Shown: one piece after another, positions 17,354 to 38,818 of the stretch
Layout of the letters: each line of letters begins with the position of its first letter
Position numbering within the stretch: the first letter of the stretch is position 1
Source of the DNA: Desulfobacterales bacterium
GTDB taxonomy: Bacteria > Desulfobacterota > Desulfobacteria > Desulfobacterales > SpSt-501
Length of the DNA: 52,682 nucleotides
Direction of reading: 5' to 3'
NCBI GenBank assembly: GCA_025454255.1
Contig: JALOOU010000013.1
Location: forward strand, 1 to 52,682
Notes under the pieces: generated by a model
The model's input: only the letters and a program-made list of their open reading frames with translations
Databases searched by the model: none
Told to the model about the DNA's origin: nothing
Program-made: the position numbers and the translations under genes

Positions 17354-17389
17354 ACGCTAATCGACGGCTGGAGAAATGCTCCTGCATTT

Positions 17390-17418
17390 TTGCGTCCTGC
17401 CGGAATGTGGTGTAGAAT
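17390..17418 (+). promoter_or_regulatory. Probable promoter of HD-GYP/HDOD gene
   Basis: TTGCGT (17390-17395), 17 bases, TAGAAT (17413-17418): a four-of-six -35 box and a five-of-six -10 box with optimal spacing. It lies back to back with the sucA promoter. It makes translation starts before about 17425 impossible for this transcript and so supports the ATG at 17550. Confidence 0.5.
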
Positions 17419-17549
17419 ACGCAGTACGGGCGAAGGGTTGCAGCGTGCGCCGGTGCGGGGCCGACGGCCTTGCGCTGCCGGCGGAGCGCGCCCGCCCTCG
17501 CATTAAAACAAGGCCGCCCATGCTGCGGCCGCCCCGGAGCCATGCGACC

Positions 17550-19198: not shown

Positions 19199-20293
19199 AT
19201 GGAGCGACGTTCACCGACTCATGATTCCGGCCGGTGGTTGCGGATCGTCACCGGAGGGGTTTTCTTCTTCGTCCACTGCCTTGCGGCCGTTCCGGCGACC
19301 GGCCAGGCCGGGCCGTTTTCCGCCCCGCCGCTGGTGAGCGTGGCGCCGGTCGTCTCCGGAGAGATCGCGCCGCAGGTTGAGTTTGTCGGCACGGTCTACT
19401 TTGCCGAAGTCTCGGATCTCTCCTCCGAAATCGAGGGCATCGTCGATGCCGTCAAGATCGAAGACGGCCAGCGGGTCAAGGCCGGCCAGGCGCTGGTGGA
19501 GCTCAACACCGATCTGCTGGCCAAGCGGCTGGAGGCGACCCGATCCAGCCACCAGCAGGTGCTGGCCGAGCTGGAAGTGGCGCGGCTCGATCTGCAGCGC
19601 AGAGAGGCGTTGTTCCGCAAGGGATCGATCGCGGAGGGCAACTACGATGACATCCGCTTCAAGGCAAGGGCGCTGGAACGACGGGCGGATTCCCTTAAAG
19701 CGGAGGTCGAGCGGCTGGAAATGGAAAACAAAAAGGCGGTGATTCGAGCTCCCTACGACGGTGTCGTGATCCGTCGCAGCGTCAGCCGCGGGGAGTGGCT
19801 GGCCAAGGGCAAGCCGCTGGCGGTCCTGGCGCGCGATGATGTGGTGGACATCGTGGTCGAGGTTCCCGAGGCCGCCATCGGTCAAATGCGGCCCGGCCTG
19901 CCCGCCAGAGTATCCGTCGGCGCAGAGGGCTTTGACGGTGCGGTCTTCGCCGTCGTCCCGCGCGTGAACGAGGCGACCCGCACCCTGCCGGTCAAGGTCC
20001 GGAGCGCCAACCGCAAGGGGCTGGTCGAGGGTCAGTCCGCCACGGTGATGCTCCCGACCGCCGCCGCCCGGCCGGCGCTCATCGTCCCGCGGGACGCCGT
20101 GATCACCAGCGCGGGCCGCACGGTGGTCTTCGTGGTGCAGGAGGCCAAGGTGCGGATGGTGCCGGTGGCCGTGATCGGCTTCGATGGACTGAAGGCGGGC
20201 GTCGCCGGCGATGGGCTTTCCGAGGGGCTGCAGGTCGTGGTCAAGGGCAACGAGCGGTTGCGGGACGGGCAGGAGGTGGCGCTCAGCCGATGA
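19199..20293 (+). CDS. RND efflux periplasmic adaptor (membrane fusion protein)
   Basis: A 364-aa HlyD/AcrA-type adaptor. Residues about 12-36 form a signal sequence (basic start, hydrophobic core, then ATGQAGPF). Next come the split lipoyl-like domain (DLSSEIEGIVDAVKIEDGQR and KKAVIRAPYDGVVIRRSVSRG) flanking a helical hairpin (about residues 100-180), then the beta-barrel and membrane-proximal domains. It links the inner-membrane RND pump to an outer-membrane channel. The last codon overlaps the start of the pump gene (ATGA), so the two are translationally coupled. No TolC-type channel gene is nearby, so one encoded elsewhere must be used. The substrate is unknown. Confidence 0.88.
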   Translation: MERRSPTHDSGRWLRIVTGGVFFFVHCLAAVPATGQAGPFSAPPLVSVAPVVSGEIAPQVEFVGTVYFAEVSDLSSEIEGIVDAVKIEDGQRVKAGQALVELNTDLLAKRLEATRSSHQQVLAELEVARLDLQRREALFRKGSIAEGNYDDIRFKARALERRADSLKAEVERLEMENKKAVIRAPYDGVVIRRSVSRGEWLAKGKPLAVLARDDVVDIVVEVPEAAIGQMRPGLPARVSVGAEGFDGAVFAVVPRVNEATRTLPVKVRSANRKGLVEGQSATVMLPTAAARPALIVPRDAVITSAGRTVVFVVQEAKVRMVPVAVIGFDGLKAGVAGDGLSEGLQVVVKGNERLRDGQEVALSR

Positions 20294-23200
20294 ACCTGAT
20301 TCAGCTGTGCATCGAAAAACGGGTGGCCGTCCTGGTCGCAGTGACGTTCGTCTTGCTGTTCGGCTGGCTCGGCCTGCAGCGCATGCCCTACCAGCTCAGC
20401 CCCACGGTGATCGAGCCCGAAATCTCGGTGACCACCAACTGGCCGGGCGCCACCCCCTATGAGGTCGAGCGCGACATCATCGAGGAGCAGGAGAAGGTGC
20501 TCAAGGGGATCCCGGGGCTGATCGAAATGGAGAGCACCTCCTCCAACAGCCAGGGAACGGTGACGCTCAAATTCGCCATCGGCACGGACGTGAACGCCGC
20601 CCTGCTGCGGGTGTCCAACAAGCTCGACGAGGTGCCCTCCTACCCGGATAACATCGACAAGCCGATCATCACCGCCACCGGCGCGGCCACATCGCCGGTG
20701 GTGTGGATGGTGTTGAAAACCGCCGAGGGGAACCCGGCCTCCGCTTACACCTACCGGACCTTCTTCGAAAACAATATCCGCCAGTTTCTGGAGCGAACCC
20801 CGGGGGTGGCGGAGCTGTTCATCGGCGGGGGGGTCGAGAAGGAGCTTCACATCGAGGTTTCCGCCGAGCGGCTGGCCGCCCACGGACTGACGATCCCGCA
20901 GCTGATCGACATCCTGCGCGCCGAGAACGTGGACATCTCCGCCGGCACCATGGGGGTCGGGCGGCGCGACTACCGCATCCGCACCACGGCCGAATTCCGC
21001 TCCAAGGAGGAGATCGAGGAGCTGATCGTGGTCTCCACCGGCCAGCGCCGCGTGCGCCTCGGGGAGATCGCACAGGTGCGCGACGGCTACCAGAAACGGG
21101 TGGCGGCGACCCTGCACATGGGCCGCGAGGGGATCGCCATCGGGGTGAAGCCCGAACCCGATGCCAACATACTAGACCTCACCGACCGGCTGGAAAAGGT
21201 CGTGCAGTGGCTGAACGCGGAGAAGCTCAAACCCGAGAAGATCTTCATCGACTGGACCTACGACCAGCGGCCCTACATCCGCGGGGCCATCGACCTGGCC
21301 TGGGGCAATATCGCGATCGGCTCGATCCTGGCGGTGGTCGTGCTGCTGGTGTTTCTACGCCGCCTCTCCTCCACGCTGGTGGTCGCGGCGGCCATCCCGA
21401 TCAGCGCGGTCGGCACCTTCGCTTTCATGGACCTTCTCGGCCGCAACCTGAACGTGGTGAGCCTGGCGGGCATCGCCTTTGCCGCGGGGATGCTCGTCGA
21501 CAACGCCATCGTGGTGCTCGAGAACATCGACCGGCACCGCAGCATGGGAAAACGTCCCTATCTGGCCGCCTACGAAGGGACGCGCGAGGTATGGGGCGCA
21601 GTGCTGGCCTCAACCCTGACGACCGTGTCGGTGTTCCTGCCGGTGATTTTCATGCGCGAAGAGGCCGGGCAGCTTTTCCGGGACATCGCCATCGCCATCA
21701 CCTCCGCCATCGTCTTGAGCTTGCTGGTGTCGGTGCTGGCCATCCCCATGCTCTCCCGCCAGCTGTTCCGGCTCATCCGCGAGGATGCCTTGTCGGAGCG
21801 CATCCGCCGGGCGGTCGGCTCGGCCGGCTCGGCCGTCGCGGCCGTCATCATGGCCGGCGTCGAACTGGCGACGCGCAGCGCGGCCTCGCGCGCGGCAACG
21901 GTCGTGCTCTTCACCGCCGTATCGGTGGGTCTGGCGGTGCTCTTGTTGCCCAAGATGGAGTATCTGCCCCAAGGCAACCGCAACCTGGTGCTGAACTTGC
22001 TCATCCCCCCGCCCGGGCTTTCCTTCGATGAACGCAAAACCATCGGCGAGCAGATCTACCGGAAAATCGAGCCCCACGTCGGGGTGGAAAAAGACGGATT
22101 GCCGGGCATCAACTCCATGTTCTACATCGGCGCGGAAGGGTTCATGCTTTTCGGGGCCATCAGCACCCATGAGCAGCGTGCCGGGGAGCTCATCCCCCTG
22201 TTTCAGGCGGCCATCCGCTCCATTCCCGGGCTGATGGGGGTGAGCCTGCAGGCGGGGGTCTTTCAGACCAGCTTGGGCCGCGGCCGCACCATCGAGGTGG
22301 ACGTGAGCGGTGAGGACCTCAACCGTCTCGTGCAGGCGGCCGGTTTGCTCTTTGCGGAGATCATGAAGGCCGTTCCCGGCTCGCAGATCCGGCCGGTGCC
22401 GTCGCTGGAGCTCTTGTTCCCGGAGGTGCGGCTGATACCGGAGCGCGACCGGCTGCGGGCGCTCGGCATGAGCGCGCGCGACTTCGGCCTGGTCGTGGAT
22501 GTCCTTATGGACGGCAGGGACATCGGCGATTACAAACAGGAGGGTCAGAAGAAGATCGAACTGCGGCTGATGGGCTCGGAGACGGACATCGACACACCGG
22601 AGGCCCTGTACAGCGCGCCGGTGGCCGTGCCCGGCGGGCGCGTGGTGCCGCTGTCGTCGCTGGCGGCCCTGGAGCGGACCAATGGGATCACCCAGGTCCG
22701 CCATCTCGAGCGCCAGAGGACGATCACCCTGCAGGTGACCCCGCCCTTCACCGTTCCTCTCCAGGAGGCCATGGAGGTCATTCAGGAGAAGGTGGTGGCC
22801 GGCCTGACCGCCAAGGGGGTGCTCCAAGGAACGCAGGTCGGCTTCAGCGGGGTGGCCGACAAACTGACCGAGGCGCGTCAGACCCTGCAATGGAACTTCC
22901 TTCTCGCCGCCCTGATCTGCTATCTGCTCATGGCGGCGCTGTTCGAAAATTTCCTCTATCCGTTGATTATCATGTTTTCGGTGCCGCTGGCGGCCGTGGG
23001 CGGGTTGGTGGGCTTGAAGCTCATCAACCTTTTCATCGCCCCGCAGCCGCTGGACATCCTGACCATGCTCGGGTTTGTGATCCTGGTCGGGGTGGTGGTG
23101 AACAACCCGATCCTGATCGTCCACCAGGCCCTCAACAACATCCGCAGCTACGGCATGGGACACCGCGAAGCCGTCTTGGAATCCACTCGCTCCCGGCTGC

Positions 23201-23442
23201 GGCCGATTTACATGAGCACCTGCACCAGCCTGTTCGCCATGCTGCCGCTCGTGCTGGTGCCGGGCCCGGGCTCGGAGTTTTACCGGGGGCTGGGCGGCGT
23301 CGTCCTGGGCGGGCTCACCCTTTCCACGGTGTTCACCATTTTTCTCATCCCCGCCCTGCTCCTGTTCCTGATCCAGCGCGAGGAGCTGCGGCCCGCCCCG
23401 GACGGAGGTGCGCAGAGCGGGGCTCCCGGAGCCAAGCTGTGA
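20290..23442 (+). CDS. RND-family efflux transporter (AcrB-like)
   Basis: A 1050-aa inner-membrane proton-driven pump with the standard duplicated layout: TM1 at residues about 10-28, a large periplasmic loop, TM2-6 (about 338-480), a second loop, and TM8-12 (about 870-1030). The proton-relay segment of TM4 reads AAGMLVDNAIVVLENIDRH, with one Asp followed by Asn instead of the Asp-Asp pair of AcrB. The matching second-half segment is ILVGVVVNNPILIVH. Length and topology fit the HAE or a related RND class. The substrate may be a drug, solvent or lipid and is not readable from the sequence. It forms an operon with the adaptor gene. Confidence 0.92.
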   Translation: MNLIQLCIEKRVAVLVAVTFVLLFGWLGLQRMPYQLSPTVIEPEISVTTNWPGATPYEVERDIIEEQEKVLKGIPGLIEMESTSSNSQGTVTLKFAIGTDVNAALLRVSNKLDEVPSYPDNIDKPIITATGAATSPVVWMVLKTAEGNPASAYTYRTFFENNIRQFLERTPGVAELFIGGGVEKELHIEVSAERLAAHGLTIPQLIDILRAENVDISAGTMGVGRRDYRIRTTAEFRSKEEIEELIVVSTGQRRVRLGEIAQVRDGYQKRVAATLHMGREGIAIGVKPEPDANILDLTDRLEKVVQWLNAEKLKPEKIFIDWTYDQRPYIRGAIDLAWGNIAIGSILAVVVLLVFLRRLSSTLVVAAAIPISAVGTFAFMDLLGRNLNVVSLAGIAFAAGMLVDNAIVVLENIDRHRSMGKRPYLAAYEGTREVWGAVLASTLTTVSVFLPVIFMREEAGQLFRDIAIAITSAIVLSLLVSVLAIPMLSRQLFRLIREDALSERIRRAVGSAGSAVAAVIMAGVELATRSAASRAATVVLFTAVSVGLAVLLLPKMEYLPQGNRNLVLNLLIPPPGLSFDERKTIGEQIYRKIEPHVGVEKDGLPGINSMFYIGAEGFMLFGAISTHEQRAGELIPLFQAAIRSIPGLMGVSLQAGVFQTSLGRGRTIEVDVSGEDLNRLVQAAGLLFAEIMKAVPGSQIRPVPSLELLFPEVRLIPERDRLRALGMSARDFGLVVDVLMDGRDIGDYKQEGQKKIELRLMGSETDIDTPEALYSAPVAVPGGRVVPLSSLAALERTNGITQVRHLERQRTITLQVTPPFTVPLQEAMEVIQEKVVAGLTAKGVLQGTQVGFSGVADKLTEARQTLQWNFLLAALICYLLMAALFENFLYPLIIMFSVPLAAVGGLVGLKLINLFIAPQPLDILTMLGFVILVGVVVNNPILIVHQALNNIRSYGMGHREAVLESTRSRLRPIYMSTCTSLFAMLPLVLVPGPGSEFYRGLGGVVLGGLTLSTVFTIFLIPALLLFLIQREELRPAPDGGAQSGAPGAKL

Positions 23443-28137: not shown

Positions 28138-28731
28138 ATGACCAAGAAGGAAGCCATCCTGCACGTCGCCACCAAGCTTTTTTCGGAAAAAGGCTACCGC
28201 AACACAACCATTGCCGAATTGGCGGAGCACACCGGAGTGGCGGAAGGGACCATTTTTTATCATTTCAAAACCAAAGAGGGGCTGTTCCTTGCCATTCTGG
28301 AAAACATCCGCCAGACGCTGATCGGGGAGTTCAATAGTTTTTTCAGGGAAAAAACGTTTGATTCGGGCATCGAGATGCTGGAGGGCAGCATCTTTTTTTA
28401 CCTTTACCTGGTCGGGACCAAAGAGGAGCTCTTCCTGATCCTGCACCGTTATGACGCCTACGAACTGGCCCAGGTGACGCCCGTCTTCCGCAAGAATTTT
28501 TCGGCGATTTACAACTTCATTTTAGACACCTTCGAAAGGGCCATCCAGCGGGGCCAGCGGGACGGGTCGATCGAAGATCTCCCGGCCGGAAAAACCGCTT
28601 TCATCGTCTTTGCGCTGGTGGACGGTATTGCCAGGCTGAAGACCTTCAACCTGTACGATTCGAGCGCGCTTTTCGAGCAGTTGATCCTGAGTTGCCGCCG
28701 CATGCTGCAGAAGGCACCCGCCCGGAAGTAA
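28138..28731 (+). CDS. TetR-family transcriptional regulator
   Basis: A 197-aa repressor-type protein. The N-terminal helix-turn-helix is typical: KEAILHVATKLFSEKGY, then TTIAELAEHTGVAEGTIFYHF and TKEGLF (residues 2-52). The C-terminal ligand-binding helical domain is variable. The ATG at 28138 was chosen; a GTG three codons upstream (28129) is equally possible. It follows the b5/DUF2231 gene by 53 bp and is followed by a terminator-like hairpin. A TetR-style palindrome sits 230 bp downstream in the promoter of the receiver/TSUP operon, so it is the obvious candidate regulator of that operon. The inducer is unknown. Confidence 0.87.
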   Translation: MTKKEAILHVATKLFSEKGYRNTTIAELAEHTGVAEGTIFYHFKTKEGLFLAILENIRQTLIGEFNSFFREKTFDSGIEMLEGSIFFYLYLVGTKEELFLILHRYDAYELAQVTPVFRKNFSAIYNFILDTFERAIQRGQRDGSIEDLPAGKTAFIVFALVDGIARLKTFNLYDSSALFEQLILSCRRMLQKAPARK

Positions 28732-28936: not shown

Positions 28937-28965
28937 TTGACACGATTAAAACGCTAAAGTATTAT
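28937..28965 (+). promoter_or_regulatory. Sigma-70-type promoter of the receiver/TSUP operon
   Basis: TTGACA (28937-28942) is a perfect -35 box; after 17 bases TATTAT (28960-28965) matches five of six -10 bases. The flanking sequence is locally AT-rich. It is the only good promoter before the nine-gene block and gives a leader of about 140 bases before the receiver at 29110. Confidence 0.75.
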
Positions 28966-28983
28966 ACTGAGTACTCACTCAGT
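28966..28983. promoter_or_regulatory. TetR-type palindromic operator
   Basis: ACTGAGT and ACTCAGT are perfect 7-bp inverted arms around a 4-base centre (ACTC); within them GAGTACTC is itself a perfect 8-bp palindrome. It begins one base after the -10 box, so a bound protein would cover the transcription start. Size and symmetry fit a TetR-family dimer, and a TetR gene lies just upstream. Binding is inferred. Confidence 0.6.
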
Positions 28984-29109
28984 TTTTTTGGCGTATAGCG
29001 TTGCCCGTCGCCAGGGCCGGCGGTTCGTCGGCAGGCAAGTTAAAAAGGAATGGCGCCCTGTTTTTGCTTGCAGCTTTCAGGTTTCCCGCCAAAAGGGGAA
29101 GGTGCAGCG

Positions 29110-29517
29110 ATGACGCATGAACTCAACATTTTGCTGGTGGACGACGAAGCCGAGTTCATTCAACGCCTCGCCGAAAGACTCTCGCTCAGGGGTTTCAAAA
29201 CCCAGGTGGCATATGAGGGCCCTGGGGCCATCGAATTGGTCAGGAGGGGAGCGTTTCATGCAGTGGTGCTGGACGTCATGATGCCGGGGATGGATGGTCT
29301 GCAGACCCTAAACGCAGTCAAAAAAATCGATTCTGATGTCGAGGTCATTCTGCTGACGGGGCACACGAGTTTGGAGGCTGCATTGGAAGGCATCCAGGCC
29401 GGGGCTTTCGATTACCTGGTAAAGCCGGTGGATGTCGACGAATTGGCCTTCAGACTGCAGGACGCATGTGAAAAACGAAGGCTGCAGATCAAGCAGGCCA
29501 CGAATTCCGACCGCTAG
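29110..29517 (+). CDS. Stand-alone receiver (response regulator) protein 1
   Basis: A 135-aa CheY-like receiver without an output domain. Visible residues are the acidic pair Asp11-Asp12 (ILLVDDEAEF), phosphoacceptor Asp55 (VVLDVMMPGMDG), Thr83 (ILLTGHT) and Lys105 (LVKPVD), all canonical for phosphorylation. The ATG at 29110 was chosen; an in-frame start at 29050 would add a cysteine-rich stretch and has no better site. It is the first gene after the TetR-controlled promoter and lies 46 bp before the TSUP permease. With no DNA-binding domain, it probably acts by protein contact, either as a phosphorelay intermediate or on the permease complex. Confidence 0.88.
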   Translation: MTHELNILLVDDEAEFIQRLAERLSLRGFKTQVAYEGPGAIELVRRGAFHAVVLDVMMPGMDGLQTLNAVKKIDSDVEVILLTGHTSLEAALEGIQAGAFDYLVKPVDVDELAFRLQDACEKRRLQIKQATNSDR

Positions 29518-29563
29518 GATTTTGGCAGGCACCCATACCACCAACCACAAAAGGAGACGGAAA

Positions 29564-30871
29564 ATGGGGTTCATCAAACAACTGGGCCGATTCATGATGC
29601 ATGGCGCCGAGGCCCACGCCAAGTGGGAGATCGCGGTTTCCCTGGAAATTCTGCACAGCAGAAAGCGCCTGTTGATCCTGATGCTGCTGTTGATCCCCCT
29701 GCTTTTGGGCGGGATCGCCTTTGCGGATCCGATCAAGGAGGCGCTGCCCGATGTCCTTGGGGGCAAAAAAGCCTACAGCCCGTCGTTTTATTCCATGGGC
29801 ATCTTCATCGTCTCCATCCTCATCGGAATGGGTGCCGGGCTGATCACCGGCTGCATCGGCGCCGGGGGGGGGTTCGTCATCGCCCCCGCGCTGATGAGCG
29901 CGGGCATCAAAGGCATCCTGGCGGTGGGGACGGACTTGTTCCACATTTTCGCCAAGGCGATCATGGGCAGCGTGATCCACCGCAAGCTGGGGAACGTCTC
30001 GGTGCCGCTGGCGCTCGTTTTTCTCATCGGCGCGATCATCGGCGCCACCGCCGGGGGCATGATCAACCGTTTTTTCTACGAGATAAACCCCGTCTTGAGC
30101 GACGCCTTCATCACCGTCATCTATTCCCTGATGCTTGGGTTCCTGGGGTCCTACGCCATGCTGGACTACCTGAAGGCCCGTAAACGGATGAAGCAGCAGG
30201 ACGCCTCGGTTCCGGACACGGGGGCCCACGGCCAGCGGGACGAAGGCGCCGAGATGGGCAGCCTGCCCCGTTCCATCCAGGCGGTCAAAATCCCGCCGAT
30301 GGTGCGTTTCGATCACGATTTCACGCCCGGCGGGCGGGCGATCTCCTGGGTGTTCCTGGTGGCCAGCGGCGCCCTGGTGGGGCTGGCGGCCGGCATCATG
30401 GGCGTCGGCGGCGGTTTTCTTACCTTCCCCATCTTTGTTTACGTCCTAGGCGTTTCGTCGATGACCACGGTGGGAACCGATATCTTCCAGATCATCTTCA
30501 CCGCCGGCTATGCCGCCATCACCCAGTATGCCATTTATGGTTTTATCTTCTACACCCTGGCCATGGGGATGCTGATCGGATCGCTGGTCGGGATTCAAAT
30601 CGGTGCCATCGTCACCAAAGTCGTAAAGGGCATCACCATTCGCGGCTTCTACGCCATGTCGGTTCTGGCGGGGTTCGTGAACCGGATTTTCGCCCTGCCG
30701 GCCAAGCTCGCCGAAATGGAACTCATCCCGCTTTCCAAACCCGTCGCTCATGCCTTGGAGGTGATCGGCATCTGGGCGTTTTTCGTGATCATCGGCGGAT
30801 TCGGGGTGTGGGTGGTGGGTACTTTTTTTGCAAACTTAGGCGTGCTTAGAGAAAAGGAGAAAGGCCAATGA
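29564..30871 (+). CDS. TSUP-family (TauE/SafE) anion permease
   Basis: A 435-aa inner-membrane protein of the sulfite exporter TauE/SafE (TSUP) family, larger than the usual 250-300 aa. A cytoplasmic N-terminal tail (about 40 residues) precedes the first TM. The family repeat appears twice: GLITGCIGAGGGFVIAP followed by AVGTDLF (near residue 90), and GLAAGIMGVGGGFLTFP followed by TVGTDIF (near residue 272). A hydrophilic loop (about residues 210-255) separates the halves. TSUP proteins carry sulfite, sulfonates, sulfoacetate or sulfate, so an anionic, probably sulfur-containing substrate is inferred; direction is unknown. The start at 29564 has AAGGAGACGG ahead. It overlaps the next gene by 4 bp. 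Confidence 0.87.
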   Translation: MGFIKQLGRFMMHGAEAHAKWEIAVSLEILHSRKRLLILMLLLIPLLLGGIAFADPIKEALPDVLGGKKAYSPSFYSMGIFIVSILIGMGAGLITGCIGAGGGFVIAPALMSAGIKGILAVGTDLFHIFAKAIMGSVIHRKLGNVSVPLALVFLIGAIIGATAGGMINRFFYEINPVLSDAFITVIYSLMLGFLGSYAMLDYLKARKRMKQQDASVPDTGAHGQRDEGAEMGSLPRSIQAVKIPPMVRFDHDFTPGGRAISWVFLVASGALVGLAAGIMGVGGGFLTFPIFVYVLGVSSMTTVGTDIFQIIFTAGYAAITQYAIYGFIFYTLAMGMLIGSLVGIQIGAIVTKVVKGITIRGFYAMSVLAGFVNRIFALPAKLAEMELIPLSKPVAHALEVIGIWAFFVIIGGFGVWVVGTFFANLGVLREKEKGQ

Positions 30872-31554
30872 GCTCTCAAAAACAGAGCATGTTCAAAGGG
30901 ATAGCGCTGCTGGGCAGCTTCGCGGCAGTCCTGGTTCTGCTGTTTGTCCCCTTTTTTAACGGCTACAATGCACTCGAATTTATGGACAACCTCTATAACT
31001 CCATCTCGAAGGGTTCAGCCAACTACCTGCCGAGTGTGACAGCCGACGTCCAGCGCTTTAAATCAAACCCCATCGATGTCACCCTTGCTTTGGCCGATGA
31101 AAAACAGGCCGCCCAGGCCGTGCAATTGATAACACGCGCGGGCGGCCGCGCCCGGGCCGATGGAAAACAGCTTAAAATAGAGGGCGATCTGGTCGCAATT
31201 TTAGCGAATGCGGTTGCCGACGCCGAGAAGATGTATGCCAACCAGGGCGAGGCGGTTCGGAGCAAGTACGGCTTCGATGAGCGTCTGGCGATGTTCAACT
31301 GGTGGAGCACGCTAAAGGCCATGGATTTCGAACTCAACAAGCAAAAGCAGTTCAAGGAGGCAAAACTCGTGGCGCTGGTGCAGAACCGGGCGATCGAGAC
31401 GGCCTACAACTACTATGGAATCCAAGCCCAGAGCATTCGGGAGCGATACGCCATCGTCATTGCATCGCTGGTATTTTACGTGGTCTACACCTTGTGGTAC
31501 GGTTTTGGCGTTATGTACCTGTTCGAGGGGTTCGGCCTCAAACTGGGGCACTAG
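30868..31554 (+). CDS. Two-TM membrane protein coupled to the TSUP permease
   Basis: A 228-aa protein with a hydrophobic helix at residues about 10-30, a loop of about 160 residues predicted outside the cytoplasm, and a second helix at about 193-217 followed by a short glycine-rich tail. The loop is mostly helical and charged. I recognise no family. Its start overlaps the TSUP stop (ATGA), so translation is coupled and the product is probably an accessory or periplasmic subunit of the permease. The two-helix topology with a large loop also resembles simple ligand-sensing modules, but no cytoplasmic signalling domain is attached. Confidence 0.75.
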   Translation: MSSQKQSMFKGIALLGSFAAVLVLLFVPFFNGYNALEFMDNLYNSISKGSANYLPSVTADVQRFKSNPIDVTLALADEKQAAQAVQLITRAGGRARADGKQLKIEGDLVAILANAVADAEKMYANQGEAVRSKYGFDERLAMFNWWSTLKAMDFELNKQKQFKEAKLVALVQNRAIETAYNYYGIQAQSIRERYAIVIASLVFYVVYTLWYGFGVMYLFEGFGLKLGH

Positions 31555-31591
31555 GAAAGCAAACCAGCGACCGTTCCGAATCTGATGCGAA

Positions 31592-34216
31592 ATGCTGCGT
31601 CTTCTCCGCAACATGCTGGCGGGGTTCAGGGCCCGGAGTGAGCCTCCCCGGGCCCTGGAGACCGACGAGGCACTGCAGACGGGGTTCAAGCTCCGCTACC
31701 TGCTGTTCAAGCGGATTCTCAATGCCAACGACAAGGTCCTCAACATGATGGCGGAGATGGAAACAGCCCTGCAGGGCAGCCGGCCCTTCGGGATGAGTTT
31801 TACGCGCTCCCGCTGCGCCCTGATCTCCGCCAATGTGTTTCAAATCATCCAGCACCTGAATTCCCTCGCACCGGGCGGAAACTACAAAGGGCTGTACGCG
31901 CGCTTCGACGATATACAGCAACAGCTGGGGCGGATGCTGGACACCCGGCCGAAGACCTCCGAGGGGCAGCTCGTTTTGCGCCTCGACCAGATCGATAAAA
32001 CCCAAGTGGATGCCGCCGGCGGGAAAATGGCGACCCTGGGGGAGATCTCGCGAAAACTCCGGCTGTCCACCCCGCCCGGTTTCGTGATCACAGCGGCGGC
32101 CTACCGGCTCTTCATGGCCCACAACCGGCTCCAGGAGGAGATCGAACGGCGCCTGCAGGCTTACGATACCGGTGACCCGGACCAGGCGCAGCAGCTGCGC
32201 TCCGGCATTCAGCAACTGGTGATTCGGTCCCCTCTGCCCGATGCCCTCGCGGTGGAACTCGGCCGGGCGGTCGAGATGTTGCAAGCCTCGAACGGCAATC
32301 GATTGCACTTGGCGGTGCGCAGCAGCGCCGTCAACGAGGACACGCGGGAGGCTTCGTTTGCCGGTCAATACCGGTCGCTGTTGAACGTGAGCCCTAAACA
32401 CCTGCAGCAGGCCTACAAGGAGGTCGTGGCCTCCAAATACACGGAGACCGCCATGTCCTACCGCTTTCACCGCGGGCTGCGCGACGAGGACGTGGTCATG
32501 TGCGTCGGGTGCCTCAAAATGGTGGACGCAGTTTGCGGCGGGGTCGTCTACACCCGCAATCCGCTCAACCCCGCGGAAGATACGCTGCTCATCCACTCCG
32601 TGTGGGGGCTGCCCAGACTCGTCGTGGACGGCCGCTCCGGCGCGGATCGCTTTGTGGTGTCACGCAAAGAGCCGCTCGTCATCCTGTCCCGAGAGATCGT
32701 TCAGAAACCCCTGAAGTATCGCTGCCTCGAAGAGGAAGGCATTTGCCGGTATGCCGTGGAGGATCGGGAGAGCCTCCAGGCCTCTTTGAGCGATGCCCAG
32801 GCGCTGGATCTCGGGCGGTTGGCGCTGGAGCTCGAAACCTATTCTGGAGAACCCCAGGACATCGAGTGGGCCATCGACGGCGAAGGCCGCGTCCAGATCC
32901 TGCAGTGCCGATGCCTGCAGATGTTCCCTCAGCCGGGCCGCGACCCCGAGGCGGCGGAGGCAGGGGCATCGGATCATCCCGTGCTCCTGCAGGGAGGGGT
33001 TGCGGCCAGCCCCGGAGCCGCCGCCGGGGCGGTCCATCTCCTGAAAAAGGAGGTGGACAAGCTCCGTTTCAAAGCCGGCGGCGTCATGGTCATCCGCCAG
33101 GCCCTGCCGGGGTACGCCCCCCTGTTGGATCGGGCCGCGGCGGTGATCGCCGAACACGGCAGCCTGAGCAGCCACTTGGCCAATGTGGCCCGGGAGTATG
33201 GGGTGCCGGCCCTTTTCGGCGTCAGCGGCGCCCTCGCGAAGTTGACGCCGGGCCAGGTGGTCACCGTCGATGCCATGGGCCGCCGGGTGTATGAGGGCGC
33301 CGTCGCGCACCTTTTCCGATCGGTCCGCCCGCCTATCCGCTTGATGGCGGGAACGCCCGTTCACGAAACGCTCAAAAGCGTGTCGGCCCATATCCTGCCC
33401 CTGAACCTGCGGGATCCGGACGCGGTTGACTTCAGGCCGGGGTCCTGCCGAACCTTCCATGACATCATCCGCTTCTGCCACGAGAGCGCGGTGCGGGAGA
33501 TGTTTCAGTTCGGCCGGGAGAATGAGTTCCCCCAGCGCGCCAGCAAGCAGCTGCTGGTCGACGTGCCCTTGAAATGGTGGGTGCTGAACCTCGATGATGG
33601 GTTTCGGGAGGAGGTCGAAGGCCGCCACGTCAAACTGGACAACATCGTTTCCATCCCCATGCAGGCCCTGTGGGACGGGATTACGATGGCCCCTTGGCAG
33701 GGCCCGCCCCCGATCGACGGCAAAGGCTTTTTGTCCGTCATGTTCGAGGCCACCCGCAACACGGCCCTTTTGCCGGGGATGCAGTCGCGCTACACGGAGC
33801 GCAATTATTTCATGATCGCTAAAAACTACTGCAGCCTGACCACGCGGTTCGGCTTCCATTTTGCCTCCGTTGAAAGCTGCGTCAGCGAGCGGGTGCCGGA
33901 AAACTACATTCTTTTTCGCTTCAAGGGCGGGGCCGCCGACGATCTGCGCCGGCATCGCAGGGTGGCCTTGATCGGCGACGTGCTGGGAGAGCACGACTTC
34001 GACGTCTCGGTCGCCGATGACGTCCTGCGGGCCCGTTTCGAAGACTACCCCATGGAGGTGATGCAGCACCGGCTCAAGATTCTGGGCTACCTGATCATGC
34101 ACACCCGGCAGCTGGACATGGTCATGGCCAACGACGCCATGGTGAACCACTATCGCAACAAGTTGAAGACGGCGATCGCCGGCCTATCGCGGCGGGAATG
34201 CCAGGAGCGGCCATGA
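31592..34216 (+). CDS. PEP-synthase-like phosphotransfer protein with unrecognised C-terminus
   Basis: An 874-aa protein. Residues 1-130 are helical and unrecognised. Residues about 135-460 resemble the ATP/pyruvate-binding domain of PPDK and PEP synthase: AAGGKMATLGEISRKL, then TPPGFVITAAAYRLF, then AVRSSAVNEDTREASFAGQY and IEWAIDGEGRVQILQCR. Residues about 480-580 form a swivelling phosphohistidine domain with His528 in GSLSSHLANVAREYGVPALFG. The TIM-barrel PEP-binding domain expected next is absent; residues about 590-874 do not match it by eye. So ATP-driven phosphorylation of His528 is plausible but the acceptor is unknown. The same overall layout occurs in rifampin phosphotransferase and other substrate-phosphorylating relatives. 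It is followed by an ATGA overlap. Confidence 0.78.
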   Translation: MLRLLRNMLAGFRARSEPPRALETDEALQTGFKLRYLLFKRILNANDKVLNMMAEMETALQGSRPFGMSFTRSRCALISANVFQIIQHLNSLAPGGNYKGLYARFDDIQQQLGRMLDTRPKTSEGQLVLRLDQIDKTQVDAAGGKMATLGEISRKLRLSTPPGFVITAAAYRLFMAHNRLQEEIERRLQAYDTGDPDQAQQLRSGIQQLVIRSPLPDALAVELGRAVEMLQASNGNRLHLAVRSSAVNEDTREASFAGQYRSLLNVSPKHLQQAYKEVVASKYTETAMSYRFHRGLRDEDVVMCVGCLKMVDAVCGGVVYTRNPLNPAEDTLLIHSVWGLPRLVVDGRSGADRFVVSRKEPLVILSREIVQKPLKYRCLEEEGICRYAVEDRESLQASLSDAQALDLGRLALELETYSGEPQDIEWAIDGEGRVQILQCRCLQMFPQPGRDPEAAEAGASDHPVLLQGGVAASPGAAAGAVHLLKKEVDKLRFKAGGVMVIRQALPGYAPLLDRAAAVIAEHGSLSSHLANVAREYGVPALFGVSGALAKLTPGQVVTVDAMGRRVYEGAVAHLFRSVRPPIRLMAGTPVHETLKSVSAHILPLNLRDPDAVDFRPGSCRTFHDIIRFCHESAVREMFQFGRENEFPQRASKQLLVDVPLKWWVLNLDDGFREEVEGRHVKLDNIVSIPMQALWDGITMAPWQGPPPIDGKGFLSVMFEATRNTALLPGMQSRYTERNYFMIAKNYCSLTTRFGFHFASVESCVSERVPENYILFRFKGGAADDLRRHRRVALIGDVLGEHDFDVSVADDVLRARFEDYPMEVMQHRLKILGYLIMHTRQLDMVMANDAMVNHYRNKLKTAIAGLSRRECQERP

Positions 34217-35442
34217 GCGTTGTTTCGGTTTTCAGCGGATCGTTTTGTCGGGAGGAGGGGTTGATTGAGACCCTGCTCGCCGAAACGGGCTACCGGCGCT
34301 TGACCGACGAGATGCTCGCGGCGCGCGCCAGCGACCTCTCCTCGCTCTCGGCGGACCTGTTGCGGCGCTCGTTTACAGCCAAACCCTCGGTGTTCAACCC
34401 CTTCACGCGCGAGCGGGAGCGCTGCCTCGCATGGCTGAAGCTGGCGCTGGCCGAGTCTCTGCAGGAGACGGGATTGCTGCTCCACGGGTTTTGCGCTCAT
34501 CTGGTGCCGGCCTCCCTTTCCCACGTGCTGCGCATCGGCCTGATTGCCGACATGGCCTATCGGGTCGAGGCCGCCTGCGCCCAACTCGGCATCGGCCCCG
34601 AGGCGGCCGCCGGCCGCATTCGGGAGCTGGACCGCGACCAGGCCGCCTGGGTGCGAATCTTCCATCCCGGCGCCGACCCCTGGGACCCGGCGTTCTACGA
34701 CATGGTCCTGCCGGTGCACAAAACAGAGGCGCGGCAGTCCGCGGCCTTGGTCAAGCGCAGCCTGGCCGCTGAGGCCCTCCAGGCCTCCGACGCCTCCCTC
34801 CGGGCGGCCCGAGAGTTTCTCTCGGCGGCCCGGGTTCAGGCGGCGCTCGCGGCGGAAGGGCATCTGATAGAGGTCACGGTGCAGGCGGGTGCCGCCGTCC
34901 TCACCATCGACCGGCCCGTTTTGATGCAGGAGCGCCTGGAAGAGGAGCTCAAGGCCGCCGTCCGGGCCGCGACCGACATCGCCGAGGTCGAAGTGCGCAT
35001 CCGGCCTGCGTCGAAGGAGGGTGCTGCCTACAGCAGGGTCACCCCCGATCGCATGTCGAAGGTGCTGCTGGTGGACGACGAGCGCGAATTTGTTCAGACG
35101 CTTTCCGAGCGGCTTGGCATGCGGGACATCGGCGCGGCCGCCGCCTTCGACGGCGAGAGCGCCCTGGAACTGGTGCGCGAGGACGAGCCCGAGGTCATGC
35201 TCCTTGATCTGCGGATGCCCGGGATCGACGGCATCGAGGTCCTCAAGCGGGTCAAAGCCGAACACCCGCAGATCGAGGTGGTGATCCTCACCGGGCACGG
35301 GACGGATGTGGACCGGAAACAGTGCCTGCAGCTGGGCGCCTTCGCCTACCTGGAAAAGCCGGTGGATATCGATGTGTTGAGCGACACCCTGAAAAGAGCC
35401 AACGAAAAGATGCGGGCCAATGTCCGCGCAAAGAAGGCCTGA
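34213..35442 (+). CDS. Cytidylate-kinase-like domain fused to C-terminal receiver
   Basis: A 409-aa protein. Residues 1-190 resemble the cytidylate-kinase-like family: VFSGSFCREEGLIETLLAE at the phosphate-loop position, and late RELDRDQAAWVRIFHP and WDPAFYDMVLPVHK, which match its typical DxxRAxYYR and DPxxYDLVLNT pattern. The loop lacks the usual GSGGR/GK residues, so catalysis is doubtful. Residues about 205-270 look like a BON-type alpha/beta module. Residues 281-409 are a receiver with the Asp288-Asp289 pair, phosphoacceptor Asp332 (LLDLRMPGIDG), a Thr in ILTGHG and a Lys in LEKPVD. The start at 34213 overlaps the preceding stop (ATGA). It probably senses a ligand or nucleotide under phosphorelay control. 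Confidence 0.7.
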   Translation: MSVVSVFSGSFCREEGLIETLLAETGYRRLTDEMLAARASDLSSLSADLLRRSFTAKPSVFNPFTRERERCLAWLKLALAESLQETGLLLHGFCAHLVPASLSHVLRIGLIADMAYRVEAACAQLGIGPEAAAGRIRELDRDQAAWVRIFHPGADPWDPAFYDMVLPVHKTEARQSAALVKRSLAAEALQASDASLRAAREFLSAARVQAALAAEGHLIEVTVQAGAAVLTIDRPVLMQERLEEELKAAVRAATDIAEVEVRIRPASKEGAAYSRVTPDRMSKVLLVDDEREFVQTLSERLGMRDIGAAAAFDGESALELVREDEPEVMLLDLRMPGIDGIEVLKRVKAEHPQIEVVILTGHGTDVDRKQCLQLGAFAYLEKPVDIDVLSDTLKRANEKMRANVRAKKA

Positions 35443-35522
35443 ACGCGCTGAGCGCGTCACTTTCCGAGAGGGAGGCCTGAAGCTGCGTTTGCCCAACCAA
35501 AGCGATAGCGCGAGTCGAGACC

Positions 35523-37268
35523 ATGACTGTTTTGCAGCGACTTAAACCCAGGTTCTGGGACCACCGTGACGCTGCTTCCGGCGTCGACAAGCATTCGTTC
35601 AATCTTCGCCGCATCTGGTATCTGAGCGTGCTGTTGACTGCAGGCGCCGCGTTGATCCCGTTGTGCCTTCTGGCCGCGATCGACTATCAGATGACCCAGA
35701 AGGCCATCGAATCGGAAAATGTGCTGCGCATATCGCGCCTGGTCTCCAATACCCGGCGCTCCCTCGCCTTCCTGCTGATCGAGCGCCGGCATGCCCTGCA
35801 GTTCCTGGTGCGGGACAACCCTCTGGGCGAGCTGAAAGCCCCCGGGCGCCTGGCCGCGATCCTCAAAAACCTGCAGGAGAGCTTCGGGGGTTTTACGGAT
35901 CTTGAGATCATCGACGCGCAGGGGCGCCAGATCAGCTACAGCGGCCCGTATGATCTGGCCAACCGGGATTACAGCCATCAGGCTTGGTTTGCCGAAGTCG
36001 TCCAGCACGGCAGCCACACGAGCGACGTGTTCATGGGATACCGTCAAATCCCTCACATCGTTATTGCCGTCACGCACCAGCCGCCGACCGGACCGTTCTA
36101 TGTGCTGCGGGCCACCCTGGAGGCGGAGCGCTTCCACCGCGAACTGCTGGGGCTCGAGGCCGGCATCGGCGGCGATCTCTTCATCGTCAACACGGCCGGC
36201 GTGTTGCAGACCCCTTCTAAGAACTATGGGGGCCTGCTCGAAAAATTGGCTCTGCCAATTCCGGAATACGTCGAAACGACGCAGACGTTCGAGACGAAAA
36301 GCCCCGCAGGGGAGGCCGTGCTCATCGGCTATGCCTACGTCGCCCAGACCCCGTTCGTGCTGATGGCGGTGAAGACCAAAGACGACTTGATGCAGCCCTG
36401 GAACAAGGCCCGCCGCCAGCTCATCGCCTATCTGTTCTTCAGCGGCGGTTCCATCCTGCTTGTCGTCCTGGCGGTTCCCACCTACCTGGTCAGCAGGATC
36501 CGCGCCGCGGACCGCACCCGGGTGGCGGCCCTGCACCAGGTGGAGTATGCCAACAAAATGGCGTCCATCGGCAGGCTGGCGGCCGGCGTGGCCCATGAAA
36601 TCAACAATCCGCTCGCCATCATCAATGAAAAAGCCGGCTTGGTCAAAGACCTGCTGCTGCTGCAGCAGGAGGACAGCGCGGCCCTCCGCCCCAAGCTGCT
36701 GGCCCAGATCGATTCGATCCAGGCAGCGGTCAAGCGCTGCGCCACGATCATCCGCAGGCTCCTCAGCTTTGCCCGCAAGTCGGATGCCACCTTTGATACC
36801 GTCGATCTGAAGAGCGTCATCGAGAGCGTGATCGGCTTCTTGGGCAAGGAGGCCGAATACCGGGGGATCGCCACCCGAATCGACATCGCACCGAATATTC
36901 CGTCGTTCCCCAGCGATCGGGGCAAGCTGGAGCAGATTTTCCTCAATCTGGTCAACAACGCATTTGCCGCGATGGCCGACGGCGGCCATCTGACCTTTCA
37001 AGGCCGGCGGCTGTCCGAAGACCGGGTGCAGGTCGCGGTCATCGACGACGGCTGCGGCATTTCGCCCGAGGATCTCAAACACGTCTTCGAACCCTTTTTC
37101 TCGACCCGCACCAAGCAGGGGGGCACCGGCCTCGGCCTTTCCATCACCTACGGTCTGGCCCAGGAGATCGGCGGCTCGATTGATGTCGAAAGCCAGGTCG
37201 GCAAAGGGACCCGGTTCATATTGACCGTACCGCTCAACCCACCGGAAAGGAAAAATGAAAACGCTTAG
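35523..37268 (+). CDS. Membrane sensor histidine kinase with Cache-type periplasmic domain
   Basis: A 581-aa kinase. TM1 is at residues about 33-53, an extracytoplasmic double-Cache-like sensor at about 60-300, and TM2 at about 302-325, followed by a short linker. The HisKA phosphoacceptor is His358 in LAAGVAHEINNPLAI. The HATPase domain has all boxes: LVNNAFAAMADGG (N), DDGCGISPED (G1), FEPFFSTRTKQGGTGLGLSI (F and G2). It is the only complete kinase in the block, so it is the likely phosphate source for the four receivers. It overlaps the next receiver by 14 bp. The ligand is unknown; Cache domains often bind small carboxylates or amino acids. Confidence 0.9.
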   Translation: MTVLQRLKPRFWDHRDAASGVDKHSFNLRRIWYLSVLLTAGAALIPLCLLAAIDYQMTQKAIESENVLRISRLVSNTRRSLAFLLIERRHALQFLVRDNPLGELKAPGRLAAILKNLQESFGGFTDLEIIDAQGRQISYSGPYDLANRDYSHQAWFAEVVQHGSHTSDVFMGYRQIPHIVIAVTHQPPTGPFYVLRATLEAERFHRELLGLEAGIGGDLFIVNTAGVLQTPSKNYGGLLEKLALPIPEYVETTQTFETKSPAGEAVLIGYAYVAQTPFVLMAVKTKDDLMQPWNKARRQLIAYLFFSGGSILLVVLAVPTYLVSRIRAADRTRVAALHQVEYANKMASIGRLAAGVAHEINNPLAIINEKAGLVKDLLLLQQEDSAALRPKLLAQIDSIQAAVKRCATIIRRLLSFARKSDATFDTVDLKSVIESVIGFLGKEAEYRGIATRIDIAPNIPSFPSDRGKLEQIFLNLVNNAFAAMADGGHLTFQGRRLSEDRVQVAVIDDGCGISPEDLKHVFEPFFSTRTKQGGTGLGLSITYGLAQEIGGSIDVESQVGKGTRFILTVPLNPPERKNENA

Positions 37269-37617
37269 CGTGTTGCTGGTGGATGACGAAGAAGATCTGG
37301 TGACCACTTTAGCGGAGCGCCTCGTCATGCGAGGAATCGAGGCCAAGTGGGCGTCGACCCCCGAAGCGGCTTTCGAAATGCTAAACCAACAGCGGTTCGA
37401 CGTCGGCGTCCTGGACATCAAATTGCCGCGCGCGAGCGGCATCGAGATCAAACGAAAAATGGAATCCATGGCTCCCGGCATGAAGTTCATCTTCATGACC
37501 GGCCATGGCTCGGAGAAGGATTTCGAGCGGGGATCGGCCGAGGCCGGCGCGTCGAACTATTTGTTGAAGCCGGTGGATATCGAGCTGCTCTTAACGAAAA
37601 TCCGGGAGATGGCCTGA
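37255..37617 (+). CDS. Stand-alone receiver protein 2
   Basis: A 120-aa receiver with the acidic pair Asp10-Asp11, phosphoacceptor Asp54 (VGVLDIKLPRASG), Thr82 (FIFMTGHG) and Lys105 (YLLKPVD), and no output domain. The loop after the phosphoacceptor (KLPRASG) is more divergent than in the other three receivers. It overlaps the kinase stop by 14 bp and shares one base with the next start, so it is translationally coupled to both, which suggests that it is the direct partner of the kinase at 35523. Confidence 0.88.
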   Translation: MKTLSVLLVDDEEDLVTTLAERLVMRGIEAKWASTPEAAFEMLNQQRFDVGVLDIKLPRASGIEIKRKMESMAPGMKFIFMTGHGSEKDFERGSAEAGASNYLLKPVDIELLLTKIREMA

Positions 37618-38399
37618 TGGCGGACACCTTGCCCAAAACCGATAGCCTCCAAGCGAAAGGGATCCTGGAACGCGCAGAGGATTCGCTGCTGGATTCGGCC
37701 GCTTCTGCCGGTTTGCGGTTTTTCGGCCGCATGTCGGCGTCCATCTCGCATGAGCTCAAAAACACCCTGAGCATCATGAATGAGAGCGCCGGGCTGATAG
37801 AAGATTTGGCGCTGCTGGCCGAACGGGGAAAGACGCTCGACGCCTCGCGGGTGAAAAGCCTGGGCGCGACCATCCAGCGGCAGATCCAGCGTACGGATCA
37901 AATCATACGCAACATGAACCGGTTTTCCCATACCGTGGACGAGCCGTTCAAAGAGGTCGAACTGGTCGACTTCCTCGAATTCATCTTGACGGTTTCCCGC
38001 CGGTTGACGGCCGCCAAAGGGGTCGCCGTGGCGGTGCATTCCAGGGATCGGCCCATCGCGGTCGTCACCCGGCCCTTTTTTCTTCACTGCCTGCTGTGGC
38101 GCCTGCTTGAATTTGGAATGCAATGGGTCGGCAAAGCCAAAGAACTGACCGTGACCCCCGCAAAAAAGCAGCCCGGAATCGTGATCCGGCTGCTCGGGGT
38201 GGAAACCCTAACTCCCGAAGCGGGCCGGGATTTCCCTGCGCCGCCGGAGCGAACGCTTTTGGCCCTGCTGGAGGCTCAGTTCAAAATCGATGTTGAAGAG
38301 AAAGCCTTGGTCCTCGTGCTGCCGCAACGTGTCAGCGACGGACGGCAAGAGGAATACGCGTCGAATACACCATCCAAAGGAGCAACGCCATGTCCATAA
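37617..38399 (+). CDS. Histidine-kinase-like protein lacking a recognisable ATPase domain
   Basis: A 260-aa soluble protein. Residues about 36-105 form a DHp/HisKA-like hairpin with His45 in RMSASISHELKNTLSIMNES. Where an ATP-binding HATPase domain should follow (about residues 135-235) no N box, DxGxG or GxGLGL motif is visible. The segment FFLHCLLWRLLEFGMQWVG sits at the N-box position without the asparagine. It may be a histidine phosphotransfer protein or a pseudokinase passing phosphate between receivers. The ATG at 37617 overlaps the receiver stop by one base; the frame upstream is a shadow inside that gene. It overlaps the next receiver by 10 bp. Confidence 0.75.
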   Translation: MADTLPKTDSLQAKGILERAEDSLLDSAASAGLRFFGRMSASISHELKNTLSIMNESAGLIEDLALLAERGKTLDASRVKSLGATIQRQIQRTDQIIRNMNRFSHTVDEPFKEVELVDFLEFILTVSRRLTAAKGVAVAVHSRDRPIAVVTRPFFLHCLLWRLLEFGMQWVGKAKELTVTPAKKQPGIVIRLLGVETLTPEAGRDFPAPPERTLLALLEAQFKIDVEEKALVLVLPQRVSDGRQEEYASNTPSKGATPCP

Positions 38400-38818
38400 A
38401 AGTGCTGTTGGTGGATGACGAAAAAGAGTTTGTGGATCTGCTGGGGGAGCGAATGTCCTCCCGGGGCATGGAGGTCAAGTCCACGACCTCCGCAAAGGAC
38501 GCCTTGAAGATTTCCGAGGGGCAGGCGTTTGACGCCATCGTTTTAGACTTGATGATGCCCGAGATGGACGGTCTGGAGGTCTTGAAAAACCTGAAGGCGA
38601 CCCGGCCGGAGCTGCAGGTCATTCTGCTGACGGGCCATGGGACCATCGAAAAAGGGGTGGAAGCCATGCGGTTGGGCGCCATGGATTTTGTTGAGAAACC
38701 GGCCGACCTCGACACCTTGACCGAAAAGATCAAGAAGGCCCAAGCCCGCAAAATGATCCTGGTGGAGCGCAAAGTGGAAGAAAAAATGCGGGATATTTTG
38801 ACGACCCGCGGCTGGTGA
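38390..38818 (+). CDS. Stand-alone receiver protein 3
   Basis: A 142-aa receiver with the acidic pair Asp9-Asp10 (VLLVDDEKEF), phosphoacceptor Asp53 (IVLDLMMPEMDG), a Thr in ILLTGHG and a Lys in FVEKPAD. After the receiver comes a charged helix of about 25 residues (AQARKMILVERKVEEKM), but no DNA-binding domain. It closes the nine-gene block. The stop lies only two bases from the stop of the convergent ubiE gene, so no terminator fits between the two. Confidence 0.88.
   Translation: MSIKVLLVDDEKEFVDLLGERMSSRGMEVKSTTSAKDALKISEGQAFDAIVLDLMMPEMDGLEVLKNLKATRPELQVILLTGHGTIEKGVEAMRLGAMDFVEKPADLDTLTEKIKKAQARKMILVERKVEEKMRDILTTRGW

Follow-up and report, generated by a model that had tools for sequence, protein, structure and literature searches.

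How sulfate enters sulfate-reducing bacteria, by which carriers and under what regulation, is an unsettled question; according to PMC7531388, Desulfovibrio vulgaris can still grow on sulfate when all three permeases annotated for this anion are missing. The window considered here (the whole 52,682-nt stretch of contig JALOOU010000013.1, assembly GCA_025454255.1, whose host is a sulfate-reducing bacterium) contains a TSUP permease encoded together with phosphorelay proteins and a PEP-synthase-like protein, a set that the original prediction took for one new system. The question is whether these genes natively belong together and what the permease may transport.

Layout of the locus

Nine ORFs lie at 29110..38818, all open and on the same strand (+) in an ORF check of the sequence; behind TetR and the operator they have the order RR1-TSUP-TM2-PEPS-CK::REC-HK-RR3-DHp-RR4. 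RR1 and TSUP are separated by 46 bp, TM2 and PEPS by 37 bp and CK::REC and HK by 80 bp; the other junctions overlap (TSUP/TM2 by 4 bp, PEPS/CK::REC by 4 bp, HK/RR3 by 14 bp, RR3/DHp by 1 bp and DHp/RR4 by 10 bp). A putative sigma70-type promoter, TTGACA-17-TATTAT (28937..28965, +), was read from the sequence upstream of the cassette and consists of a -35-like TTGACA (28937-28942), a 17 bp spacer and TATTAT (28960-28965), with the predicted TetR operator ACTGAGT-ACTC-ACTCAGT (28966..28983, +) directly 3' of it. The arrangement originally described, nine co-directional genes with these junctions behind one promoter/operator, is therefore present in the sequence. Pfam searches found Response_reg in four window proteins and agreed with the four receivers, complete kinase, DHp-only protein and phosphohistidine enzyme that had been predicted, the HisKA match of the DHp-only protein falling just below the cut-off (26.3 vs 26.9 bits).

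Judged from gene order in other genomes, the nine genes are two conserved modules fused in one operon and not one native system. Module A (RR1-TSUP-TM2-PEPS) elsewhere usually forms a separate locus of its own, and module B comprises TetR, CK::REC, HK, RR3, the DHp protein and RR4; because the modules are usually apart, we rejected the one-system reading. Among the relatives with module A is the culturable Desulfosarcina widdelii (L088). The expectation that homologs cluster elsewhere holds for each half, and for the joined set in genomes G249 and G293 and partly in locus L071, but the halves are usually separate. An assembly chimera was considered and rejected in view of the 4-bp overlap of PEPS with CK::REC and of L071, from another genome, in which CK also directly follows PEPS.

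A SulP operon in relatives

Relatives have the layout TetR-SulP-CK::REC-HK-RR-DHp-RR, in which SulP is a permease of ~715 aa that includes a STAS domain, and the window has the orthologous TetR, CK::REC, HK, RR3, DHp and RR4 in this sequence. The SulP gene is not in the window operon and module A fills its slot, which is why we regard the window locus as a derivative and not as a plain member of the SulP-relay operons. Compared with the best-match copies at 20 module B loci, the window proteins are 42-56% (TetR of the SulP operons), 45-51% (CK::REC), 48-55% (HK), 44-58% (RR3), 32-46% (DHp) and 46-68% (RR4) identical. All SulP-slot proteins tested (7/7) carry PF00916 and STAS.

In a set of 395 genomes of the phylum, 50 have CK::REC (E<=1e-60) and 44 have the SulP type that scores highest (E reported as 0), both cuts having been set after viewing the lists (the searches' own limits give 84 and 52 genomes). 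CK::REC is present in 44/44 top-SulP genomes; in 37 it immediately follows SulP in the same orientation, and in 7 the two are on different contigs. This link does not extend to SulP proteins in general, because eight further genomes with a weaker-scoring SulP (E 1e-257 to 1e-162) are without CK::REC. In the window assembly the ~715-aa SulP type was not found, and the two other SulPs of this genome share mostly 32-45% and 23-30% identity with it over the aligned pieces; the L071 genome likewise gave no SulP match. Loss of SulP in these two genomes is not certain, because the window genome is 87.3% complete and the completeness of L071 is not established. TM2 and the ~715-aa SulP are present together in 30/395 genomes, so the two are not strict alternatives.

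The TetR-family repressor (28138..28731, +; TetR_N, Pfam) is the first gene of the SulP-type operon, and its predicted operator stands exactly at the module A promoter, with similar sites upstream of TetR-SulP operons. Genome-wide the operator has a single exact copy, and the sole further site within 2 mismatches has 2. Operator-like sites (<=2 mismatches) were found in 9/16 SulP loci, where shuffles expect 0.075 and control blocks gave 0/201, and were absent at this limit from 7/16; the loci were those of the 20 module B loci with a SulP coordinate, L180 offering only 793 bp upstream. This conservation agrees with the TetR control that had been proposed: TetR would repress the operon at 28966-28983 until an inducer arrives.

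The permease and its partners

RR1 (29110..29517, +; Response_reg, Pfam) is the single-domain receiver of module A and precedes the TSUP permease (29564..30871, +), which passes the gathering score of PF01925 (TauE) with 125.6 vs 32.6 bits and shares 67-78% identity with the 21 orthologs aligned from relatives. Relatives of TSUP were taken as the best 80 of 512, and no related solved structure was found by sequence search at E<=1. The two-TM partner TM2 (30868..31554, +) has an alpha/beta and helical domain between its end helices. No Pfam family was found for it, a fold search gave no match at E<=0.001, and its profile reached a best E of 0.45 against the PDB (alignment of 56 of 69 picks and the window protein). 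Under a strict distance rule TM2 directly follows TSUP in 73/76 named-genome loci with enough flank, the misses being L096 and L103, where another survey lists TM2, and L108, which is without it; the two genes are also adjacent in 20/20 distant loci, which were chosen from TM2 matches. The pairing exceeds chance. TM2 also tracks dissimilatory sulfur metabolism, dsrA (E<=1e-100) being present in 92/97 TM2 genomes vs 190/395 overall (Fisher p 1e-29, kinship ignored), and a tie of the transporter to sulfur metabolism, as originally suggested, is what we infer.

Of 34 TSUP loci that have 8 kb of sequence to either side, 21 contain a receiver protein with a sigma54-activator motif (assigned by motif and length); all six such proteins checked carry the Pfam sigma54 domain, and five of them HTH_8 as well. 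The predicted lack of a DNA-binding output stands for the window, on whose receiver proteins Pfam found no such domain, but fails for module A at other loci. We also considered, and did not adopt, orthology to DVU2958 and the DVU2957-2967 operon, whose gene order we were unable to match.

PEPS (31592..34216, +; PPDK_N and PEP-utilizers, Pfam) contains an ATP-grasp domain (140-444), a phosphohistidine swivel domain (494-561) and a C-terminal domain (about 588-868). Residues K145, R243, E425, Q438, R440 and H528 are invariant in 49/49 alignment rows (48 of 52 picks and the window protein), and PEPS can probably load a phosphoryl group of ATP onto His528, the half-reaction of PEP synthase. The C-terminal ~290 residues gave no Pfam family and no convincing PDB chain by sequence, and the fold search returned PEP synthase and dikinase matches, none assignable to this domain. 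Because Pfam, PDB and fold searches found no PEP/pyruvate barrel in PEPS, the coupling to the PEP/pyruvate state contained in the original prediction is unsupported and was rejected; the phosphoryl acceptor is probably not pyruvate.

The relay proteins

CK::REC (34213..35442, +), the marker of the SulP operon, joins a cytidylate-kinase-like domain (Cytidylate_kin2) to a receiver (Response_reg). Residues 72-166 match positions 78-172 of PF13189 (42.7 vs 28 bits), profile positions 1-77 are unmatched, and no Gly-rich loop of the P-loop pattern was seen by eye in 23 aligned rows; the domain is probably non-catalytic. It is followed by the membrane sensor histidine kinase HK (35523..37268, +; HisKA and HATPase_c, with a sub-threshold dCache_1), the single-domain receiver RR3 (37255..37617, +; Response_reg, Pfam), the DHp-only protein (37617..38399, +) and the single-domain receiver RR4 (38390..38818, +; Response_reg, Pfam). 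The DHp-only protein has no HATPase match, its His is conserved in >=90% of a 20-row alignment, and the consensus is without the ATP-binding G-box; it is likely a histidine phosphotransfer protein, and the predicted relay with a DHp-type protein fits this loss of the ATPase part with the His box kept. From these domains, HK would sense a signal and pass phosphoryl groups through RR3 to the DHp protein and on to other receivers, including CK::REC. Because the relay receivers carry no DNA-binding output, the relay would most likely set transporter activity post-translationally.

Recurrence of the joined set

G249 (100% complete) and G293 (99%), of a family different from that of the window, have the order TetR-CK::REC-HK-RR3-DHp-RR4-[operator, 2 mismatches]-TSUP-TM2-PEPS-REC. 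The gene order differs from the window, the operator stands directly upstream of TSUP, and neither genome has a PF00916 match. G249 lies far from the window in the TSUP tree (which includes L155 and leaves out L193). L071 (RR-TSUP-TM2-PEPS-CK) is the sister of the window TSUP in this tree (100/99). G447 gave no SulP match, and in G109 and G333 a divergent REC-TSUP-TM2 set adjoins the SulP operon. DASS homologs are present in the window genome, G249, G293 and G447, and the merged operons of G249 and G293 each have a DASS gene downstream.

Discussion

We consider it rather probable that the TSUP cassette has taken the place of SulP in a sulfate-permease operon, and that TSUP and TM2 transport sulfate or a closely linked sulfur anion. 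Module A has replaced SulP in the operon, and TSUP with its two-TM partner would move this anion in its stead, which points to TSUP as an overlooked, regulated sulfate uptake route. Given the DASS gene behind the merged operons of G249 and G293, TSUP need not be an importer, and the presence of DASS sulfate-symporter genes in the same genomes leaves some probability to a role in export. TSUP-TM2 would then export an anion of sulfate reduction (sulfite, sulfide or bisulfide) or balance charge, co-regulated with import by SulP or DASS. The Pfam family takes its name from sulfite export, and TSUP proteins include exporters; the 30 genomes with both TM2 and the ~715-aa SulP, the divergent TSUP beside the SulP operons of G109 and G333 and the DASS symporter gene behind the merged operons would also suit an exporter. 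We nevertheless hold export to be unlikely, since the window has the cassette in the slot of the ~715-aa SulP, which was not found in this assembly, and G249, G293 and G447 are without any SulP match.

It is less probable still, and in our judgement improbable, that the cassette was inserted passively downstream of a strong, regulated promoter and that relay and TSUP are unrelated. That module A usually occupies a separate locus, and that related cassettes often lie near kinases and sigma54 regulators of their own, is consistent with such an insertion, but a similar fusion with another gene order and the TetR operator directly upstream of TSUP is seen in G249 and G293, module A adjoins the SulP operon in G109 and G333, and PEPS and CK::REC overlap in the window. 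We give very little credence to the operon as one new post-translational switch tying transport to the PEP/pyruvate state; a PEP-synthase-like protein and four receivers beside a transporter may suggest it, but the barrel was not found and the genes are split into two modules elsewhere.

Returning to displacement of SulP by the TSUP cassette, we suggest only tentatively, as a less likely extension, that TSUP-TM2-PEPS is a new regulated sulfate transporter in which the dikinase-type enzyme charges its own His from ATP and passes the phosphoryl group to the transporter, TM2 or a dedicated receiver, the His-Asp relay inherited from SulP converging there too. If true, two phosphate circuits would meet on one uptake system able to replace SulP in sulfate reducers. 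Through displacement, and through recurrence elsewhere, the locus connects the regulators and operator of a SulP permease with a widespread subfamily of TSUP; it also identifies TM2 as a partner protein and PEPS as a phosphohistidine enzyme with a putative regulatory role, and exposes a SulP-linked phosphorelay, of which no earlier description was found in the parts of the literature searched.

Compared with known systems, the window permease is a member of the TSUP family (PF01925, TauE/SafE) above the cut-off and belongs to a subfamily of ~435 aa that is accompanied by a two-TM partner and, in most cases, by a PEP-synthase-like gene. PEPS resembles PEP synthase, pyruvate phosphate dikinase and rifampin phosphotransferase in having an ATP-grasp and a phosphohistidine domain, but at the position of the C-terminal PEP/pyruvate barrel of PEP synthase it has ~290 residues without a Pfam family. 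The DHp-only protein presumably resembles phosphotransfer proteins of the Spo0B and ChpT type, having a pair of DHp helices, a His box and a C-terminal remnant that lacks the G-box. The SulP-slot proteins are alike in length class and in a PXYGLY-type motif (PPYYGLY) to group Ci, the ~710-aa SulP proteins of sulfate reducers described as putative sulfate transporters (Marietou et al. 2018, PMC5840216). The terms 'cytidylate', 'kinase', 'two-component' and 'response regulator' were not found in the body of that article. With the operons of this group the window shares TetR, operator, kinase, receivers and DHp protein, but SulP is replaced by TSUP-TM2-PEPS.

Results

An ORF check of the window placed the nine co-directional genes and the TetR gene where the original prediction had put them, and Pfam and NCBIfam scans bore out its domain assignments; TM2, the two-TM partner of the TSUP permease (PF01925), had no match in either scan, and Pfam found no ATPase domain in the DHp-only protein. 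Five junctions of the cassette are overlaps (4, 4, 14, 1 and 10 bp) and the remaining gaps measure 46, 37 and 80 bp. A promoter read from the sequence (TTGACA-17-TATTAT, 28937-28965) is followed directly by an 18-bp palindromic operator (28966-28983), of which the genome holds a single exact copy. Elsewhere in the window lie a glutamate-dehydrogenase-like protein with C-terminal CBS domains (7812-9683), a 916-aa ORF with zero Pfam matches (14517-17267) and an HD and HDOD domain protein (17376-19025) that adjoins an AcrB-type efflux pair (19199-23442).

The cytidylate-kinase-like/receiver fusion (CK::REC) and the DHp-only protein had at first looked like odd extras, an impression overturned when orthologs of both turned up in numerous relatives, where they lie some 3.3 kb from each other at loci separate from TSUP. 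In 20 such loci (henceforth module B), some of which end early at contig ends, we found CK::REC in 20/20, the sensor kinase in 19/20, TetR in 16/20 and the DHp protein in 16/20 as listed, plus receivers. A same-strand gene of 708-738 aa was present in 17/20 loci as listed; it encodes a ~715-aa SulP permease that also contains a STAS domain (7/7 tested). In the window this SulP gene is missing and has been replaced by RR1-TSUP-TM2-PEPS (module A, where PEPS is the PEP-synthase-like protein), which occupies the slot between TetR and CK::REC. Compared with their best hits at module B loci, the window regulators show 32-68% identity, and the operator is common to both: allowing ≤2 mismatches, the motif lies upstream of the SulP operon at 9/16 loci (shuffle expectation 0.075; control blocks 0/201), preceded by an exact TTGACA in seven of these nine, and was not found at that threshold at 7/16.

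We then scored co-occurrence over 395 phylum genomes, with cut-offs of E=0 for the top-scoring SulP type and E≤1e-60 for CK::REC. This SulP type was present in 44 genomes and CK::REC in 50; all 44 SulP genomes have CK::REC, adjacent in 37 and on a different contig in the other 7. In eight more genomes SulP matched less strongly (E 1e-257 to 1e-162), and none of these has CK::REC at E≤1e-60. CK::REC without the top-scoring SulP type occurs in six genomes (the window's own, G249, G293, G328, G353 and G026), three of which (the window's own, G249 and G293) have modules A and B joined.

The joined set recurs in another family: G249 and G293 (100 and 99% complete) carry TetR-CK::REC-HK-RR3-DHp-RR4 followed by TSUP-TM2-PEPS-REC, with the TetR operator (2 mismatches) at the TSUP 5' end, after RR4. 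Both genomes have dsrA, and no PF00916 match was found in either. Downstream of the joined operon both carry a DASS-type sulfate symporter gene, which with a single receiver follows PEPS (L155:13355-16305 and L193:306-3461); in G293 a CBS-domain protein also lies between PEPS and the DASS-type gene. In the TSUP tree, G249 falls in a separate supported group and, since its gene order is also unlike the window's, the simplest reading is that the modules were joined at least twice. The window TSUP lies apart from those of its own genus (G001-G004) and is sister (support 100/99) to that of locus L071, where RR-TSUP-TM2-PEPS-CK runs to the contig end; no SulP match was found in the L071 genome, whose completeness is unrated. 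Congeners G001 and G004 have TetR-SulP-CK::REC loci plus TSUP-TM2-PEPS elsewhere, and G003 has TetR and CK::REC at its module B locus with SulP absent among the ORFs listed. In G109 and G333, REC-TSUP-TM2 divergently adjoins an intact TetR-SulP operon.

Among the best 80 of 512 loci in a TSUP-alignment scan, a sample hence biased toward close relatives and counted where flanks sufficed, TM2 follows TSUP in 73/76, a receiver precedes it in 59/75, a kinase lies upstream in 46/55, PEPS (≥39% identity, same strand, ≤3 kb after) in 39/57, any PEPS within 8 kb in 47/57, and a sigma54-activator-type regulator within the locus in 21/34 (Pfam sigma54 domain in 6/6 tested). Titles in these best 80 were Desulfobacterales, Desulfobacteraceae, Desulfosarcina, Desulfovibrionaceae, Desulfarculaceae and similar, the remainder being unassigned Delta- or Proteobacteria. 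TSUP also adjoins TM2 in 20/20 loci chosen from distant families, where PEPS and receivers are sometimes missing. TSUP-TM2 is therefore the invariant core of module A, with PEPS and receivers variable. Across the phylum, 97/395 genomes have TM2; G349 (rated 100% complete) has TM2 and TSUP, but its dsrA match is weak (E 4.9e-5). In family f96 (L151-L152) the locus has the pair but neither receivers nor PEPS, and the two may therefore function without the other module A genes.

PEPS matches occurred in 51/58 genomes searched (own included), many being paralogs, and the order REC-TSUP-TM2-PEPS was repeated around close matches. An alignment to PEP synthases covers residues 115-587, and the predicted structure (mean pLDDT 83.5) matches the folds of PEP synthase, rifampin phosphotransferase and dikinases. 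K145, R243, E425, Q438, R440 and H528, which we take to be the equivalents of dikinase catalytic residues, are invariant in 49/49 aligned rows. No domain match was found for residues 588-868, so, judged by the defining barrel, PEPS is not a PEP synthase. The window's genome has 13 stretches matching PEPS (window:31592-34216 among them; contigs C155, C122, C4, C186, C33, C70 and C32), a sizeable ATP-grasp/phosphohistidine protein family, and two of these paralogs (L038, L039) align also across the C-terminal region lacking family assignment. A second TSUP subfamily, of ~350 aa and with about 30% identity to the TSUP of the window, is encoded no more than about 3 kb from PEPS paralogs (about 30-37% identity) at 8/15 picked paralog loci (L039:9210-14475 on C122 of the window's genome, L042, L044, L046, L049, L050, L058 and L062; the count leaves out L048, a 3.3-kb fragment), so the PEPS-TSUP link extends beyond module A.

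The confident TM2 model (pLDDT 91.5) places an alpha/beta plus helical domain between two long terminal helices; its fold search gave no significant match. Since the CK domain aligns only to the second half of its Pfam profile, and no Gly-rich loop was seen in 23 aligned rows, it is probably a non-catalytic adaptor. The DHp protein keeps a conserved His box, with a consensus lacking a G-box, and by eye the acidic pair, Asp and Lys are kept in all four receivers.

Discussion

The original prediction had proposed one nine-gene switch linked to the phosphate or PEP/pyruvate state of the cell. Our analysis shows that module A has taken over the SulP slot of a SulP-relay operon, that the repressor and operator are shared with such operons, that the joining recurs, and which domains the proteins contain. 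TetR would repress this operon, phosphoryl groups may pass along HK-REC-DHp-REC, and control of the transporter would be post-translational; PEPS may autophosphorylate.

On our main reading, TSUP-TM2 would import sulfate. Two observations suggest this substrate: SulP group Ci, the ~710-aa class, is treated as putative sulfate transporters in the accessible part of Marietou et al. 2018 (PMC5840216), and dsrA occurs in 92/97 TM2 genomes vs 190/395 overall (raw counts that ignore kinship). Against it stand other SulP and DASS genes in the window genome, DASS genes in G249, G293 and G447, and TM2 together with the top-scoring SulP type in 30 genomes.

In the literature searched we found no description of the SulP-relay operon or of a TSUP cassette replacing SulP in it, with subscription papers mostly outside the search's reach. 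As far as the accessible text of PMC5840216 goes, TSUP proteins were found in all 44 sulfate reducers examined, and function prediction was not deemed feasible. The accessible part of PMC4641369 reports nine sigma54-dependent D. vulgaris operons that include TSUP or PSE transporters, and gives no substrate data for them.
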